From: Helicobacter cetorum
Lineage (GTDB): Bacteria; Campylobacterota; Campylobacteria; Campylobacterales; DZAY01
Assembly (NCBI GenBank): GCA_022729735.1
Contig: DZAY01000003.1
Coordinates: 60,757-124,756 of the forward strand
DNA: 64,000 nt
Direction of reading: 5' to 3'
Positions 636 to 7,813 of this stretch are shown here, in pieces. Under the pieces are notes generated by a model that saw only the letters and a list, made by a program, of their open reading frames with translations, ran no database searches and was not told where the DNA came from. A program made the position numbers and the translations under genes. The first letter of the stretch is position 1; each line of letters starts with the position of its first letter.

Positions 636-938
636 TTATCTCACTTTTTTATATTTTTTATTCAAATAACAAAAATCATAAAAATCGCATAACATCATAT
701 ATTTCACATCAATATCTCTAAATTTATTAACAATTAACTCTTCTCCACTCAAATATAGCTTCACATCATCTCTAAACTCTTTTGGATAGCTCAATTTTTC
801 TTCTTTTAAACCACTAAAGCAGATTAAAAAATCAGAAAATATTTCATCTATTAACTCTTTATCTTTGCTACTTTTAGTTATCAAAAAATCTCCAACACTC
901 TCAAATCTTTTTAAAATTTCAACTAAACACTCTCTCAT
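636..938 (-). CDS. Small hypothetical protein, last gene of the MoxR/OLD-like run
   Basis: About 100 residues, acidic/basic mixed and predicted helical, with no recognised domain, signal peptide or membrane segment. The ATG at 938 is preferred over the in-frame GTG at 944, because a GGAG motif formed by the end of the upstream gene lies five bases before it. The gene starts two bases after the stop of the 941-1498 gene, so the two are probably translationally coupled. It is the promoter-distal member of the seven-gene minus-strand run. Function unknown. Confidence 0.6.
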   Translation of the reverse strand: MRECLVEILKRFESVGDFLITKSSKDKELIDEIFSDFLICFSGLKEEKLSYPKEFRDDVKLYLSGEELIVNKFRDIDVKYMMLCDFYDFCYLNKKYKKVR

Positions 939-940
939 TT

Positions 941-1498
941 TCACTCCATATAAGGTATATCCATTAAAGCATCTCTATCTTTTGCCTTAAAATCAAATGA
1001 GTTATCCACATTTTGCAACTCTTTTAAAACCTTTTCAATCGCTTTTTTTTGCAAAATATGTGCATTTGAATTTGTTAAATTATTCTCTATTTCAGCTTTA
1101 TAAAATCCCAAAATTATTGGATGTAGTTTTGATTGATTTGAAATCAACTCTTCTAAAAACTTTTTGATTTGTGATATATCAAAATCTCGAATTTGATGAA
1201 GTTTGCGAACTAAATTTCTAACAAACTGTTTGTGATGATAACCTTCACTCATAAATAAAAGTTCAGAAGAAGCATAAATATCTGCCACCTGTTCTGAATA
1301 GTTATAAAGGTATCTAAAATGGTCGCACACAAACTCTAAATACTCTGGATAATGTTTTAGCACAAATACAAGCTCTTTTAAATCTTTATCAATCAACACT
1401 TGAAAAAGTGTAATTGTTCGCTTTTTTATCTTTTCCCAATGAAGTCCCTCACCTTTTATCTCTTCGATAAATCGCTCATAATTTTTTATGTCATACAT
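941..1498 (-). CDS. Helical hypothetical protein, paralogue of the 3313-4020 product
   Basis: 185 residues, predicted all-helical and soluble. Most of it aligns by eye with the C-terminal ~140 residues of the protein encoded at 3313-4020. Shared features are a basic start with LF and a DxxEL motif, then a block of the type KKF-x-x-x-I-x-N, a phrase xI-x-x-Y-x-x-EI, and the ending NSNxHILQxKxxEK. The start has an AAAGG motif about six bases upstream of ATG. It follows the TOPRIM gene by 13 bases. I recognise no catalytic motif. The paralogy suggests an adaptor or regulatory subunit shared with the VWA/MoxR genes, which is inference. Confidence 0.65.
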   Translation of the reverse strand: MYDIKNYERFIEEIKGEGLHWEKIKKRTITLFQVLIDKDLKELVFVLKHYPEYLEFVCDHFRYLYNYSEQVADIYASSELLFMSEGYHHKQFVRNLVRKLHQIRDFDISQIKKFLEELISNQSKLHPIILGFYKAEIENNLTNSNAHILQKKAIEKVLKELQNVDNSFDFKAKDRDALMDIPYME

Positions 1499-1511
1499 TT
1501 ACTACCTTTGG

Positions 1512-2183
1512 TTAATTATTTGAAAGTAGTTTTAAAAAAGTTTTCAAATCATTTAAAATAGGATTTTCAAAATCCCAAATATCTTTTTTTATTGCAACTT
1601 CATTTTTACAATTTTTATCAGCTTGTTTTTGTTCTTTTTTACTACAAGTATCAAATCTCAAATAGTTACTCACCCAAAATTTATCAAACTCTTTTTGTGA
1701 AATCTCTTTTTTATTTTCTTCTAAACATTTTTTCCAAGCTTCCAAACAATCAGCATAAATAGATTCTTCTGATTTTATGGCTTTTAATACTGTTTCAAGT
1801 TCTCCATTTCCTTTTACATTCATAATATAGCAACCAATTTCTATATCTAACTCTTCAACTCTTATAAATTCATTTATTTTTGTAATTTCAAAATTATCTG
1901 ATACATCTTCCAAAGATTTAACACATTTATTAATTAAAGCAATTTGTTTTTCAATACCTTCATTATCAGCATCAATAATAATTCCTATTTTTTTATATTG
2001 CTCAAATCTAACCTCTTTAAGAGTTTGTGTTAATTTTTTTTCAGATAATCCACCTAAACACTCAAAATCTGTAATATTACAAATAGGCTCATCTACTTTA
2101 ATATTTGTAAATCCCATAACATCTTTTAATTTTTCGATAAAAAATTTATCATTATGACTTTCGACAATAATTAAATTATTCAC
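1512..2183 (-). CDS. DUF3226-like TOPRIM-domain protein (split OLD-type nuclease subunit)
   Basis: 223 residues. The N-terminus has the TOPRIM signature: a beta-strand ending in the conserved Glu8 with Asp12, then the hydrophobic strand leading into the DxD motif (Asp71-Ala-Asp73). A later GELETVL phrase and the C-terminal WDFENP...LKTFL segment match what I know of the DUF3226 family. TOPRIM domains coordinate metal and cut or join DNA. The gene overlaps the upstream AAA-ATPase gene by 8 bases. This resembles two-gene OLD-like arrangements (as in PARIS, where ATPase and TOPRIM-fold partner are separate), so it is probably the effector partner of that ATPase. The family is fairly sure; defence function is inference. 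Confidence 0.75.
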   Translation of the reverse strand: MNNLIIVESHNDKFFIEKLKDVMGFTNIKVDEPICNITDFECLGGLSEKKLTQTLKEVRFEQYKKIGIIIDADNEGIEKQIALINKCVKSLEDVSDNFEITKINEFIRVEELDIEIGCYIMNVKGNGELETVLKAIKSEESIYADCLEAWKKCLEENKKEISQKEFDKFWVSNYLRFDTCSKKEQKQADKNCKNEVAIKKDIWDFENPILNDLKTFLKLLSNN

Positions 2184-3264
2184 CTCTTACCTCTCGATTA
2201 TGAGTTAGAGCATATTCAAGTTGTTCATTATCTCGCTCTTTTACTACTATCAAACCATTTTTCTGATTTCTATAAAATTCAAGATAAATTCCCTCATCAC
2301 TCTCATTTACTTTATTAAATGCTTCTATACACTCTTTTGAGTGAGTAGTAGCAAAAATTTGACAATTTGCCATTTTTGAAGCTTCAAAGATAATTTTCCA
2401 AAGTTTTTCATAATTTGTATAATGTATTCCATTTTCTATTTCATCAATAAATAAATAACCATCTTTACTTGCCCAAATTGCACATAAAATAGCGATGTAC
2501 CTATTAATTCCTTCACCAAAAGAAGATAATAAAACTAATTGTTCTCTATTTTGTAATCGTAATTTAAAAACAGTTCCACCTTGTATAGGTATAGCTTTTA
2601 ATAAAATAATATTTTCATCAAATTGCTTAAGAGACTCATTTAAATATTCTTCTTTATTTAAATTACTTAAACTGCCATAATACACAGCTAATGATATATC
2701 ATCTGCAATACATGATGATATAAAATTTACATTATTTGCAATATATTTAATATCTTGTTGAACTGAAAAAATTTTGCTTCTAAACTGTGAAATAGGAATA
2801 CTTAATTTATCAGAATTAGAAAAGCTTATTTCTACTTCTGAATCAAGTGTCATTTTATTTATATTTGGATTTTGGAAAAAATCTTGCATTTGTGAATTTT
2901 TATTAAAATCAGGTTTATTTACAAGTTCACTAGCATCAATAAATTTAAGATTTAAGTTAAAAGCTCCACTATATAAACTTATATCTGATTTTAGTTCATT
3001 AAAAAAATCTAACTCAATAAATTGTTGAGGCTGATTTGGATTATTCTTTCTATCTTGTCTTCTTCTTGTTATATTAGATACTATTATTAAAACCCCAAAT
3101 GCAGTTCTTGGTTTCAATAACATCTCCAACCCTTCAAGAAATGAAGTTTTACCAATATTATTTTTACCACCAATTAAATTAACTCTTTTTAAATTTTTAA
3201 CTTTTAAATCTTGAAAGCATTTAAAATTTTTAAACTCAACATCTTTTATAAAATTATCACTCAT
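2176..3264 (-). CDS. OLD-like AAA ATPase (AAA_15/AAA_21 type)
   Basis: 362 residues. A Walker A (GKNNIGKT, residues 33-40) follows an N-terminal segment typical of RecF/SMC-like ATPases (FKNFKCF). An ABC-like signature region lies at about 246-255 (LSSFGEGINR), Walker B at 271-275 (LFIDE), and a switch histidine at 308 (TTHSKE). These are the ATPase elements of OLD-family and related single-chain ABC ATPases, but no TOPRIM domain is fused. It is supplied by the overlapping downstream gene. The gene starts 49 bases after the helical protein at 3313-4020, so it may share a transcript with the MoxR/VWA genes. Likely role: ATP-dependent sensor paired with the TOPRIM protein. Confidence 0.82.
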   Translation of the reverse strand: MSDNFIKDVEFKNFKCFQDLKVKNLKRVNLIGGKNNIGKTSFLEGLEMLLKPRTAFGVLIIVSNITRRRQDRKNNPNQPQQFIELDFFNELKSDISLYSGAFNLNLKFIDASELVNKPDFNKNSQMQDFFQNPNINKMTLDSEVEISFSNSDKLSIPISQFRSKIFSVQQDIKYIANNVNFISSCIADDISLAVYYGSLSNLNKEEYLNESLKQFDENIILLKAIPIQGGTVFKLRLQNREQLVLLSSFGEGINRYIAILCAIWASKDGYLFIDEIENGIHYTNYEKLWKIIFEASKMANCQIFATTHSKECIEAFNKVNESDEGIYLEFYRNQKNGLIVVKERDNEQLEYALTHNREVRGE

Positions 3265-3312
3265 GACACACCTTTACAAATTTGTTTTTAATAATCATAT
3301 CAAATTTTAAAT

Positions 3313-4020
3313 TCAAACCTCTTTTACAACTTCTCTATTCATCTTCTCCACCACTTTTATCTGCAAAATATGTAAATTGGAGTTTTTGCACCACTCTTTT
3401 ATCTCTTTATAAAAATAGTCTAAAATCATCTCATGAATGCTATTTTTATTCTCTATTAAATATTTTATAAACTTTTTTAACTCTTCTAAATTCAACTCTT
3501 TTACATTTTTTAGTTTTTGAGTAAGTGCAAAAAATAGCTCTTTATCAATATTTGTAACTCTATTTAAAAACTTTGTAGCCTCTATTGACTCTATCTCTGT
3601 ATCATTCCATTTTCTACCTGTTTTTAGCTGATTGATTGCCATATCTAAAAATATTGGCACTAAATCAAGCACCAAATTTAGCTCTACGAAATCTCCATCA
3701 GTTAAAGAGCGAAATAGCATTCTTGCTCTATTTCTAATTTTCACTCTTAAATTTTCATCACTTATTACATCTTTGTGAAGTAAGCTAAATCGCTCCAAAG
3801 CACCTAATCTTGAGTGATTGAATGCCATAATTGAGACAATTGGACTTTTATCTGCTACTTGAATTTTGTGTGAGCCACTTGGACGATAAAAAGCCCAAAG
3901 AACTCTTGCTTGTTCATCTTCGTGATTTAAATATCTCTCATCTCCGATTTTTTCATAATCTTCATCATCTTTTATCTCATCAATTTGGGCTTTATATGTT
4001 AAATTGAATAACTCTTCCAT
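3313..4020 (-). CDS. Helical hypothetical protein following the VWA gene
   Basis: About 235 residues. The first ~90 residues carry an acidic stretch and an aromatic/basic segment (WAFYRPSGSHK). The C-terminal ~140 residues are helical and homologous to the 941-1498 product. ATG at 4020 is preferred over an in-frame TTG at 4029; neither has a clear Shine-Dalgarno motif. The start overlaps the end of the VWA gene by about 29 bases, which ties it to the MoxR/VWA pair as a third subunit. Such third partners are common next to MoxR-VWA pairs. I recognise no domain name. Confidence 0.65.
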   Translation of the reverse strand: MEELFNLTYKAQIDEIKDDEDYEKIGDERYLNHEDEQARVLWAFYRPSGSHKIQVADKSPIVSIMAFNHSRLGALERFSLLHKDVISDENLRVKIRNRARMLFRSLTDGDFVELNLVLDLVPIFLDMAINQLKTGRKWNDTEIESIEATKFLNRVTNIDKELFFALTQKLKNVKELNLEELKKFIKYLIENKNSIHEMILDYFYKEIKEWCKNSNLHILQIKVVEKMNREVVKEV

Positions 4021-5137
4021 ATTTTTCAAACTTTTTTAAATTTTTTGTAGAACTAATTACAAATAGAGTTTCACAAACTAAACTTTGATTTATTTCAAAC
4101 TCTCCATCACTCAAAACTAAAAGAATAGAGTTGTAATTAATTGATGTGTGATTTAAATACTCTATCACACTATCAAAGTTTGTGCCACCTTCGGATTTTG
4201 GGATTTTTAGCTCACTTTCACTAATTGGATTGAAGCTATCAAAAGAGATTATAAACTCTCTATTTACAATCGAGCTAAAAGGTATAACTACAATTTTATA
4301 CTCATAAAATCCATCGCAAATTTCACTAATAAATCCTAAAAACTGTTTATACTCATCTAAACTCACACTGCTTGAGCTATCAAGTGCGATAAAAATTTCT
4401 ATCATTTCGTTAGCTTTTTTTTGTCCAGCCAAATATAAATTTGAGTGAATATATCTTCTATTTGGTCGCTCAAATGTTGTAACTTTTTCAAATAGAGATG
4501 TAACTAAATACTCTTTTAGCAAATCTTGCATAGGAATAGAAGGTTTTATAAAGCTATCAACTTCAACTCTTAAAAATTCATACAAATTTGTAGATTTTTT
4601 TGCTATTGTCAAAGCTTGAATTATTATATTATTTAGTTTTTCAGAACTCTCTACACTATTTTCGCTATCACTCTCTATTAAATCAAAACTTTCATTCTCG
4701 CTAAATTCAACACTATTTTGGTTTTTTTTATAAAGTATTTCATAAACCTCTTCTACACATTTATTTGAAAATTCAAAATCCAAAATCTCATGTTTTGGCT
4801 TTTTGCCAATATTTTCAAAACTGTTTAATATTAAATTTACAACTAAATTTGCACTAATATTCCAAGTAGTTTTATCTTTTGTTTTCATTCTATAAGGGTG
4901 TTTTAAGACAATATGCAACAAAATATGTGCATACATGTATGTAATCTCTTCAAAAGAGTAACCGTTTAACTTTTTTTCATCTATAAATATCTTAAATCCA
5001 TTACTTTCAAATGCAGAGTTTTGATTATCTTGATAAATTGTCTCAATCGAGAGAGCCAAAACTGATAAAAATGGGTGATTAAATAAGAAATTTATCCTAA
5101 TTTTTTTGAAAAGTTCTTCAAATAATATACTCTCCAT
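3992..5137 (-). CDS. VWA-domain protein with DUF2201-type metallopeptidase-like N-terminus
   Basis: 381 residues from the preferred ATG at 5137, which has GGAG four bases before it. An upstream ATG at 5155 has no such site. The N-terminal half resembles the putative metallopeptidase region of DUF2201 proteins, but the HExxH-like site reads HILLH with a further His five residues on (His71, His75, His80), so the catalytic Glu is Ile72. The C-terminal half is a VWA-like domain with a MIDAS motif (Asp253-x-Ser255-x-Ser257), a Thr in GGTNF (319) and a final Asp in LSDGE (344). The start overlaps the MoxR gene by 20 bases. The pair should act as an ATPase-driven metal-binding remodelling complex. 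Confidence 0.82.
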   Translation of the reverse strand: MESILFEELFKKIRINFLFNHPFLSVLALSIETIYQDNQNSAFESNGFKIFIDEKKLNGYSFEEITYMYAHILLHIVLKHPYRMKTKDKTTWNISANLVVNLILNSFENIGKKPKHEILDFEFSNKCVEEVYEILYKKNQNSVEFSENESFDLIESDSENSVESSEKLNNIIIQALTIAKKSTNLYEFLRVEVDSFIKPSIPMQDLLKEYLVTSLFEKVTTFERPNRRYIHSNLYLAGQKKANEMIEIFIALDSSSSVSLDEYKQFLGFISEICDGFYEYKIVVIPFSSIVNREFIISFDSFNPISESELKIPKSEGGTNFDSVIEYLNHTSINYNSILLVLSDGEFEINQSLVCETLFVISSTKNLKKFEKYGRVIQFNI

Positions 5138-6128
5138 ACCTCTCCATCCACTCATTAAAAGAGTCTAAATTTGCAATATTTTCATCTTTTACAATCAAAT
5201 CTTTTATAAGCAAAACTGAAAATTCAACAGGTAGATGATTTGCATATTTGAATAGATTTGTAGCTTTTTCTAAATTCCCATCATATCGCTCAATTAGTGC
5301 TGAACATATCGCATACAAAGCACTTGGCTCTTTTGGCACATCAAATATTAATCCATCTAAAATTGCTTCAACATTTGGCAATGTTTCATAAATTTTGACA
5401 AATGAGATAAATTCAACTCCTCCACCATATCCAACAGTTCCATAAATAATAGGTGAAATTTGAGCAATATTTCCATTTTGTTTTATGATATTTGATAACA
5501 TACTCCAACTTCTTGGAGTGCAAAATGCTGGATTTGTTTCGCTATTGCTTGGAATAGTAGAGCTTAGCAAATCTGGACGAAATCCCAAAAATCCGATTAT
5601 AAAAGGGTGAATTTGATTTTTTATAGCCCACTCTTTGAAATCATCAAATTTCGCTTCCAAAACTAAATGCACCATTCTATTAATCAGTGGGCTTGGAAGT
5701 TTAAACACAATTCCCTTATCATTTATCCTATTTCCAGCACACACAATTCGCCAACCTTTTGGCAACTCATATTCACCTATCTTTCTATCCAAAACCAACT
5801 GATAAATAGCAGATTGCACAGAGAGTGGAGCAGAATTTAGCTCATCTAAAAACAAAATCCCTTTTGAATCTGGATTTGTTGGTAAAAAAATTGGTGGCAT
5901 CCATTTTGTTTGATTGTTATAAATCGTTGGAATTCCTCGCAAATCAACAGCATCTAATTGACTAAGTCTAACATCAATTAACTCTAAATCTCTCTCTTTT
6001 GCTATATCATTTACAATATGCGATTTCCCAATCCCAGGGCTTCCGTGAATAAAAACAGGAGTATCGCTTTGAAGTAGTATTTGAAGTTGTTTATAAAGCT
6101 CTTTTGTTCCAATTGAAGGTGTTATCAT
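5118..6128 (-). CDS. MoxR-family AAA+ ATPase
   Basis: 336 residues. Walker A GSPGIGKS at 29-36, Walker B ILFLDE at 91-96, sensor 1 Asn133 (AGNRIND) and an arginine-finger candidate Arg151 (PLINRM) mark a MoxR-type AAA+ protein. These hexameric ATPases usually work with VWA-domain partners to insert metals or remodel target proteins. The partner here is the next gene, whose start overlaps this gene's end. It is the first gene of the minus-strand run and lies back to back with pglC, leaving 86 bases for both promoters. Confidence 0.88.
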   Translation of the reverse strand: MITPSIGTKELYKQLQILLQSDTPVFIHGSPGIGKSHIVNDIAKERDLELIDVRLSQLDAVDLRGIPTIYNNQTKWMPPIFLPTNPDSKGILFLDELNSAPLSVQSAIYQLVLDRKIGEYELPKGWRIVCAGNRINDKGIVFKLPSPLINRMVHLVLEAKFDDFKEWAIKNQIHPFIIGFLGFRPDLLSSTIPSNSETNPAFCTPRSWSMLSNIIKQNGNIAQISPIIYGTVGYGGGVEFISFVKIYETLPNVEAILDGLIFDVPKEPSALYAICSALIERYDGNLEKATNLFKYANHLPVEFSVLLIKDLIVKDENIANLDSFNEWMERYGEYII

Positions 6129-6181
6129 AAAATCTTCTTTAAAATAATTTATAAACTATTCATGCAACTCTTGAGCCAAAA

Positions 6182-6903: not shown

Positions 6904-6932
6904 TTAGAGCTAATTAAGGCTCTAATTTTTTT
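6904..6932 (+). terminator. Rho-independent terminator of pglC
   Basis: A 7-bp stem (TTAGAGC/GCTCTAA) with an 8-base loop is followed by seven T residues on the plus strand. The hairpin overlaps the last codons of the convergent Rpn-type gene. Confidence 0.65.
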
Positions 6933-7813
6933 ATCTCTTCAATTGTCAAACCTGTAAATTCATTTATTATTTCTAAATCTTGTTTTTTTGATAACATTTT
7001 TTTCGCAATTTCTATTTTTGCTAACTTTTCACCTTCTACTTTTCCTTTTTCAATTCCAACTTGCTCACCTTCCATTTTTCCTTCAATCTTAGCAGTGTCA
7101 AGTAGTGATATTTCAAGCATTTTATTTTCTACTTTTCTTTGATATTTTAGTTTTTCTTCATAAGTAAGTTTTAAAACATCAAGTTTTTCTTTTGCTTTTT
7201 CTAATCCTTTGGCTTTGAAATTATCTTGTATTTCTTCAGTTTTAAGGAAATATATCCACTCATCAATTGTGTTTTTTGCAATATCATTAAAGCTATTAAC
7301 TTTGATAATGTAGTATTCTGGGAAGATTTCATAAACTTCACTTTTATTAAACTCTCTTTTTTGATAATTTGAGAGTTTCAAATCACTCTCTTTTTTATTT
7401 AAACCTTTAAAATCCATTTTGCCGTGATAGAGATAATCTTCGCCTTGTCCTAAATCAAAATATACAATATTTACTGAATAAACTTTTTTTACTTGTTTAT
7501 ATCCTCTGCCACCATCGATATATTGGCAAATTAGTTTTGAAGTGCCATAAATCATTCTATGAAAATAGTCTGTTTCGCTATTGTGTTGAAGTTCGATTAA
7601 AATCAATTCACCTTTATCATTTTTTACAAGCATATCAACTCGATTAAATTTATCAAACTCATCATCTTGATTTGCTTCACTTTCTAATATCTCTTCAATT
7701 TTTATATCAAAACCCAAAAGCTCACTTAAAAAACCTTCTAATATTTCAAAATTAGCTTTTTCTCTTAATATTTTTTTCATTGCCCAATCAAAGCTTACTA
7801 ATTTTCTTGACAT
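6914..7813 (-). CDS. Rpn/PD-(D/E)XK nuclease family protein
   Basis: 299 residues. This is the family annotated as Rpn recombination-promoting nuclease or 'PD-(D/E)XK nuclease family transposase'. The N-terminal phrase SFDWAMKKILRE, Asp60 in RVDML and the Glu74-x-Gln76 pair in IELQ form the PD-(D/E)XK core. The C-terminus has a charged helical region with GKMEG/GKVEG repeats and an ending similar to other members (FTGLTIEEIKKL). Members nick DNA and promote RecA-independent recombination; they occur in many copies in some Campylobacterota. No inverted repeats or target duplications were seen, so it need not be mobile here. It follows ruvC by 12 bases. Confidence 0.82.
   Translation of the reverse strand: MSRKLVSFDWAMKKILREKANFEILEGFLSELLGFDIKIEEILESEANQDDEFDKFNRVDMLVKNDKGELILIELQHNSETDYFHRMIYGTSKLICQYIDGGRGYKQVKKVYSVNIVYFDLGQGEDYLYHGKMDFKGLNKKESDLKLSNYQKREFNKSEVYEIFPEYYIIKVNSFNDIAKNTIDEWIYFLKTEEIQDNFKAKGLEKAKEKLDVLKLTYEEKLKYQRKVENKMLEISLLDTAKIEGKMEGEQVGIEKGKVEGEKLAKIEIAKKMLSKKQDLEIINEFTGLTIEEIKKLEP

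Follow-up and report, generated by a model that had tools for sequence, protein, structure and literature searches.

Seven closely spaced genes on the minus strand of a 64,000-nt stretch of the Helicobacter cetorum genome (assembly GCA_022729735.1, contig DZAY01000003.1, positions 60,757–124,756; hereafter, the window) encode a MoxR-type AAA+ ATPase, a VWA protein with a metallopeptidase-like part, a helical protein (HelA), an OLD-like ATPase, a stand-alone TOPRIM protein, a second helical protein (HelB) and a small protein (Table 1). Neighbouring genes in the run overlap by 4–38 nt or are spaced by 13–48 nt. A first-pass annotation had described the run and proposed that it could be a single multi-part defence system or two systems side by side; all seven open reading frames (ORFs) were found at the positions it gave. 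Here we examine the relatives of these genes, the link of the module formed by MoxR, VWA, HelA, HelB and the small protein to nitrogen fixation, and the status of the ATPase/TOPRIM pair.

Table 1. Genes and intergenic features of the locus (window coordinates)
Feature	Position	Strand	Remarks
Small module protein	636–944	−	102 aa; GTG start
HelB	941–1498	−	HelA paralogue
Gap between inserted pair and helB	1499–1511	no strand	13 nt; sigma54-type motif of many relatives absent
Stand-alone TOPRIM protein	1512–2183	−	DUF3226, PDC-M38B type; GTG start; gene 2 of the likely passenger pair
OLD-like ATPase	2176–3264	−	AbiLi/PDC-M38A type; gene 1 of the likely passenger pair
Gap between helA and inserted pair	3265–3312	no strand	48 nt; helA side of the likely insertion
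HelA	3313–4029	−	All-helical, conserved with MoxR–VWA; likely start ATG at 4020
VWA protein with DUF2201_N metallopeptidase-like part	3992–5155	−	MIDAS DxSxS kept; HExxH-like motif without Glu
MoxR-type AAA+ ATPase	5118–6128	−	336 aa; first gene of module
Sigma54-type −24/−12 motif TGGCTCAAGAGTTGCA, predicted promoter	6163–6178	−	GG 49 nt before MoxR start

Pfam searches bear out the annotated families: MoxR matches AAA_3 (E = 5e-7) and AAA_5 (6e-6), the OLD-like ATPase matches AAA_15 (7e-20) and the TOPRIM protein matches DUF3226 (5e-24). For the VWA protein, the metallopeptidase-like part also stands, with a match to DUF2201_N (4.8e-19; the DUF2201 and VWA matches are weaker), and is refined in one respect, as its motif reads HILLHIVLKH and not HExxH. 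HelB is a paralogue of HelA, as had been claimed (29% identical across 139 residues, with E = 2e-18), and a search of the same genome with HelA finds these two as sole members. Profile searches gave no named-family match above cut-off for HelA, HelB or the small protein. The predicted structure of HelA is a confident, all-helical model, for which a clear structural relative was not found. MoxR has no CbbQ/NorQ subfamily match in Pfam or NCBIfam, and a sequence search of the PDB returned distant AAA+ and OLD matches only, with nothing for the VWA protein.

We compared 78 loci, comprising the window and 77 relatives with helA (two duplicate records were dropped, and 7 of the 78 loci are under 10 kb). 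MoxR orthologues in related loci are about 55–78% identical. The MoxR and VWA genes lie no more than 200 nt apart in 65 of the 78 loci, and in 63 of them MoxR, VWA and helA are consecutive, each within 200 nt and in the same order. The DxSxS motif of the metal-ion-dependent adhesion site (MIDAS) of the VWA protein is present in 77/77 loci examined. Relatives keep three histidines of the metallopeptidase-like motif (HxxLHxxLKH), and the Glu of HExxH is absent from all 75 readable loci of the 77 examined; because this Glu is lacking, the metallopeptidase-like part is not expected to work as a peptidase. The DUF2201_N part may instead bind metal, judging by its conserved histidines. In eight relatives helB follows helA at 13–146 nt with nothing in between, and the small protein is matched in 20 of the 78 loci (window included), mostly directly after a gene resembling TIGR01616, described below.

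Some relatives of the module genes occur in other settings. A second MoxR–VWA pair lies a few kb from the first in eleven loci (L074, L117, L125, L127, L137, L164, L175, L177, L184, L185 and L192); in the four loci measured, the identities are 42–45% and 20–22%. Distant MoxR–VWA pairs are also found in genomes without a nifH match (for example, G118 and G151). Directly after helB, three nifH-carrying genomes each encode a protein of about 170 residues (L148:7590–8102, L072:6589–7098 and L073:1903–2415), and the two that were scanned have no Pfam match.

Nitrogenase genes and the MoxR–VWA module

The distribution of the module follows that of nifH. Among 398 sampled genomes of Campylobacterales, with helA counted at 130 bits or more, nifH was present in 35 of the 36 helA genomes and in 54 of the 362 genomes without helA (89 genomes in all; Fisher test, 1e-24); the single exception, G383, is 78% complete. 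In a follow-up of two families, nifH was found in 36 of 41 further helA-positive genomes compared with 2 of 26 without helA, the latter drawn from the non-matches listed and including two helB-only genomes (Fisher test, 3e-11). The contrast holds within one genus (g9), in which all seven helA-positive genomes carry nifH, compared with 1 of the 19 helA-negative genomes tested among the non-matches listed; another genome of this genus, G406, has helB only and no nifH. Overall, 71 of the 77 genomes with intact helA have nifH, and helA-positive genomes are spread over seven families. The VWA gene was also searched in 199 relatives: strong matches (at least 190 bits) occur in 13 genomes, all of which are among the 46 that carry nifH (hypergeometric test, 1.2e-9).

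The gene neighbourhoods point the same way. Directly upstream of MoxR, 40 of the 78 loci have nifQ (identified by BLAST; the one protein scanned matches Pfam NifQ at 2e-17), and many relatives have a flavodiiron-like gene (ODP and flavodoxin domains) upstream of nifQ. An ArsC-like protein, encoded after helA in many relatives, matches the nitrogenase-associated family TIGR01616 (1e-32 to 4e-29; of three proteins, one exceeds the curated threshold). Genes called by BLAST to two TIGR01616-matching proteins are present in 56 of the 78 loci, and 61 loci have either such a gene or nifQ. Where helB lies apart from the module, in genome G101, it adjoins one Nitro_FeMo-Co gene and is 2.3 kb from another. 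The window genome itself carries nifH, nifQ, four consecutive Oxidored_nitro genes and a Nitro_FeMo-Co gene near nifH.

In one genome (G100), nitrogen fixation and the module decay together. Its nifH match covers half of the protein and contains an internal stop, nifQ was not found in this genome, and the flavodiiron-like gene (FDP), MoxR, VWA and helA are all in pieces; the decayed nifH and module genes (L077 and L139) lie about 15 kb apart on contig 1. The MoxR–VWA half is tied to nitrogen fixation and not to conflict.

Upstream of MoxR in the window is a motif of the sigma54 type, TGGCTCAAGAGTTGCA, whose first base lies 50 nt ahead of the MoxR start codon and which has the strict form; the background of the search pattern in the loci is 0.0026 per 200 nt for this form and 0.028 for the loose form. 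The nifH gene of the window genome is preceded by GGAACTCTAAATGC, of the looser form, at a distance matching that of the MoxR motif, and the looser form occurs before 8 of 12 nifH genes among those listed.

Several observations weigh against a nitrogenase-specific module. Most nifH-positive genomes in the 398-genome sample (54 of 89) are without helA, so the module is not generally needed for nitrogen fixation; it is accessory, needed under certain conditions or for some variant. Six of the 77 genomes with intact helA have no nifH match (G383, G471, G505, G513, G530 and G560). All six assemblies are in 60 contigs or more (60–170 for the last five), and four of the last five carry nifQ adjoining MoxR. 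Four of the last five are also rated 98–100% complete, and because four of the six genomes are thus nearly complete, our confidence in the mechanism is slightly lowered. Genomes with helB only (G001, G166, G406 and G510, 76–93% complete) have no nifH match either; in G166, helB adjoins a NifS-like gene of the aminotransferase-V family (L147:634–2429) and, despite this neighbour, nifH is not matched and no MoxR–VWA pair lies in the 8 kb seen. Neither nifQ nor a TIGR01616-like gene is present in 17 of the 78 loci, including that of the window, and the nif genes of the window genome are on contigs other than that of the window. Among distinct loci without nifQ, only 8 of 34 have a sigma54-type motif before MoxR, and the stricter form precedes nifH in 3 of 20 distinct loci. 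Apart from the comparisons within families and within one genus, the co-occurrence counts are uncorrected for common descent. Finally, that nitrogenase is the client of the putative chaperone is a prediction from linkage and distribution.

Some of these points speak for another account, in which the module has another metalloenzyme as its client or supports a response to nitrogen limitation or low oxygen that travels with nif genes, such as nitric oxide handling or an oxidase. The many nifH genomes without the module, the six helA genomes without nifH and the flavodiiron-like gene upstream in many loci fit such a role, and the known pairs NorQ–NorD and CoxD–CoxE serve enzymes other than nitrogenase. 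Against it, no genes neighbour the module more often than nifQ and the TIGR01616-like gene, helB adjoins a Nitro_FeMo-Co gene in G101, and the module and nifH decayed together in G100. We give this account well below an even chance.

The ATPase/TOPRIM pair and other cargo

The first-pass annotation had joined the two halves of the run and likened the ATPase/TOPRIM pair to PARIS. That the pair is of a defence type is supported, with a different nearest relative. In PADLOC, the ATPase matches PDLC02336 AbiLi (1.4e-57, residues 5–360 on 1–340 of 340) and PDC-M38A (1.7e-54), and the TOPRIM protein matches PDC-M38B (6.8e-12); both PDC-M38 components are therefore present and adjacent, in genes that overlap by 8 nt. 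AriA is matched by the ATPase much more weakly (1e-19). At E 0.1 the TOPRIM protein has no match to AriB, the TOPRIM nuclease that PARIS requires, and no AbiLii-named PADLOC model appeared among its matches. The residues known to be catalytic in these families are kept: in the ATPase, Walker A, Walker B and the H-loop (four ATPases compared; Walker A is readable in three, as one is clipped at its start), and in the TOPRIM protein, E8 and D71-x-D73, which are invariant in five sequences. A second OLD-like ATPase is encoded in the same genome (G000 contig 53, 20958–21953; 30% identity), with a 1122-residue open frame that has a weak ATPase match about 2.7 kb beyond it.

The pair and the module do not recur together. 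An OLD or TOPRIM gene accompanies the module in 1 of the 78 loci, that of the window, and strong ATPase matches (more than 100 bits) occur in 9 of the 199 relatives, which share only the window's own genome with the 13 that have a strong VWA match. Around the nearest relatives of the pair, in G034 (57% identity by the ATPase) and G022 (52%), the stretches examined contain none of the module genes. In GC content at third codon positions (GC3), the pair (0.105 and 0.103) differs from helA, helB, VWA and MoxR (0.198–0.251); across the 59 window ORFs of at least 150 residues (mean 0.155, s.d. 0.034), the pair ranks fifth and third lowest. This contrast marks a differing make-up and does not tell which part is foreign. 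Separately, helA has the highest GC3 of the 59 ORFs and helB, VWA and MoxR are high too, and the module itself may have been acquired. Repeats around the inserted pair are AT-rich and of low identity among the matches listed, and no target-site duplication was recognized. A plasmid search with the ATPase returned 155 records, all below 60% identity (28.5% in the top row), with no close mobile relative among them. Near the locus, a gene for a transposase-like nuclease of the PDDEXK_2 family lies at window positions 6914–7813.

On these grounds the pair is likely a separate, anti-phage cassette lodged between helA and helB; its role in defence is predicted from profile matches. The proposal of one hybrid system, in which a MoxR–VWA arm senses or controls and an ATPase/TOPRIM arm cuts nucleic acid, draws on the single tight minus-strand run with its overlaps, and on the discussion of both kinds of half in conflict settings (excerpts of PMC7159879; PADLOC matches). 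It is rejected on co-occurrence: the halves are together in one locus only, their genomes overlap only at the window's own, their GC3 differs, and other species have different cargo at this and neighbouring gaps. We consider such a hybrid highly improbable. The milder alternative of two systems side by side survives in the defence-like ATPase/TOPRIM pair and fails for the other half, which follows nitrogen fixation.

The cargo of other species is varied. In G394, DitA and DitB of Ditto (5e-172 and 8e-109) separate MoxR from VWA in a nif-linked operon (L137:10880–14732), and the same gap contains a pair that by eye closely resembles the Phd/PIN pair of G304, in which the PIN toxin is clear, the Phd match is below cut-off and PemK is also present. 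Operon gaps hold a PD-T4-3 match (6e-51) and PemK in G524, PDC-M40B (1e-78) in G382, a weak BrnT/CopG pair in G520 and a GmrSD_N protein in G373. In G349, a GmrSD_N protein and an SMC-like ATPase lie between helA and the TIGR01616-like gene (L131:4811–8040). Within the genus of G349, five species (G307, G343, G402, G407 and G408) have only 46–80 nt at this position and G398 is arranged otherwise; the cargo of G349 is a recent insertion, with empty sites in five species of the genus. The variety of cargo therefore speaks against a specific link of MoxR–VWA with any one of them. Interruptions of more than 600 nt that hold ORFs of at least 100 residues occur in 27 of the 77 related loci; several are common to sister species, so they are not independent events, and many are transporter or enzyme genes on the opposite strand, that is, ordinary rearrangement. 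The named systems in these gaps make a hotspot enriched in defence genes an attractive idea, which a control did not support: from 218 candidate inserted ORFs, 98 were sampled at random, and no more than 10 of these matched PADLOC at E 1e-15, compared with about 7 or more of 98 flanking ORFs in the same loci among the matches listed, and PADLOC covers plain toxin–antitoxin pairs poorly.

The position of the pair bears on its transcription. Of the 25 distinct relatives with helB or the TIGR01616-like gene downstream (two duplicates removed), 17 have a sigma54-type motif before it, and in those relatives one unit may close with helA and another start after it. In the window there is no such motif between helA and helB, and helB follows the TOPRIM gene after 13 nt. 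Because the pair is downstream of the motif before MoxR, the second motif is missing and this spacing is short, the pair is likely co-transcribed with the module from the putative sigma54-type promoter. The same observations, together with the intact catalytic residues, would also suit a pair that has been co-opted into the regulation of the module, for example with defence switched on only during nitrogen fixation and the pair retained since its transcript now feeds helB and the small gene too. We judge co-option distinctly unlikely: the arrangement is known from one genome and the co-transcription is predicted, the related pairs of G034 and G022 are not located with the module, and the pair could have its own promoter (a scan for sigma70-like sites found 27 compared with 36 expected).

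Predicted function and known systems

Taken together, the evidence favours, with moderate probability, a reading with two units. One is a module of MoxR, VWA, HelA, HelB and the small protein, which within the Campylobacterales is almost confined to nitrogenase-carrying genomes and is predicted to be an ATP-driven chaperone for the maturation or repair of nitrogenase; the other, the ATPase and TOPRIM proteins, is a separate, likely anti-phage cassette. The module has the marks of a MoxR–VWA metalloenzyme chaperone: adjacent genes, the MIDAS DxSxS motif and a consistent link to one client enzyme. By analogy with NorQ–NorD and CoxD–CoxE, a MoxR hexamer would hold the VWA protein, the MIDAS site of which would dock on a nitrogenase component or an assembly intermediate, and HelA and HelB could supply target specificity as target or adaptor parts. 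ATP hydrolysis would then reshape the target such that a metal cofactor is inserted or exchanged, close to the step at which NifQ supplies molybdenum. The ATPase/TOPRIM pair would act outside the work of the chaperone, as a nuclease defence of the AbiL/PDC-M38 type.

A bolder version, which we hold to be rather unlikely in its entirety, is that MoxR–VWA–HelA/HelB is a machine of the Campylobacterota, so far undescribed, that matures or repairs nitrogenase as an ATP-driven chaperone of metal cofactors beside NifQ, and that its sigma54-driven operon serves as a landing strip for interchangeable phage-defence and toxin–antitoxin cargo (AbiL/PDC-M38 here; Ditto, PD-T4-3 and GmrSD-type elsewhere), with the nuclease defence in the window armed only during nitrogen fixation.

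Known MoxR–VWA pairs activate nitric oxide reductase, carbon monoxide (CO) dehydrogenase and rubisco; a nitrogenase-linked pair would extend this list to the enzyme at the centre of nitrogen fixation. If the reading is correct, the module points to an assembly or repair factor missing from the usual set of nif genes and is relevant to moving nitrogenase into new hosts. The locus also illustrates how a metabolic operon with a defence pair as passenger can mimic a composite defence system. In the open-licence literature we found no prior description of a nitrogenase-linked MoxR–VWA module, so its absence from the literature as a whole is unproven. In that literature, no work was found that brings MoxR, nifQ and nitrogen fixation together, works on DUF2201 appear unrelated by their titles and the beginnings of their abstracts, those naming Arcobacter nitrofigilis and nifQ contain no mention of MoxR or von Willebrand, and those joining nitrogenase, von Willebrand and MoxR concern CO dehydrogenase only.

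The published systems nearest to the locus are compared here as excerpts of the cited papers describe them. AbiL is a two-gene abortive-infection system (abiLi and abiLii; PMC3985639), and the pair in the window resembles AbiL/PDC-M38 in its two-gene ATPase and TOPRIM make-up, whereas its TOPRIM partner has no match to an AbiLii-named model. PARIS consists of an OLD-like ATPase (AriA) and a TOPRIM protein (AriB) encoded by split genes (PMC10568477), an arrangement shared by the pair; the differences are the weak AriA match and a TOPRIM protein of the DUF3226 family in place of AriB.

The ternary conflict systems of Kaur and colleagues (PMC7159879) also bring MoxR and vWA genes together, and the presence of both genes is what would favour placing the module among them. 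We give this assignment almost no credence, as the distribution here tracks nifH, the order of MoxR, VWA and helA is kept across most loci, and a third component or effector domain (VMAP, iSTAND, FtsH or beta-propeller) has no match in Pfam or PADLOC on HelA, HelB or the small protein, for which no dedicated profiles were run.

Among the chaperone-like pairs, CbbQ–CbbO, a two-protein remodeller made of MoxR and VWA proteins that acts as a rubisco activase, links such a pair to one key enzyme. A Pfam model exists for the C-terminal part of CbbQ-type proteins, and the MoxR described here does not match it. In CO dehydrogenase, the Mo/Cu site is matured by CoxD, a MoxR-like AAA+ protein, together with the VWA protein CoxE (PMC4240915), a pair that thus serves a molybdenum enzyme, as the module is predicted to do; the scanned neighbours here have no CO dehydrogenase match, with nifQ and TIGR01616-like genes instead. 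In NorQ–NorD, which insert iron into the nitric oxide reductase cNOR, both ATP hydrolysis and the MIDAS site are required (PMC9976466). The module shares with NorQ–NorD a MoxR-class AAA+ protein beside a VWA protein, a conserved MIDAS DxSxS motif and a link to one metalloenzyme of the nitrogen cycle, and it differs in its DUF2201-type VWA protein, in two conserved additional helical proteins and in having nitrogenase as the linked enzyme.

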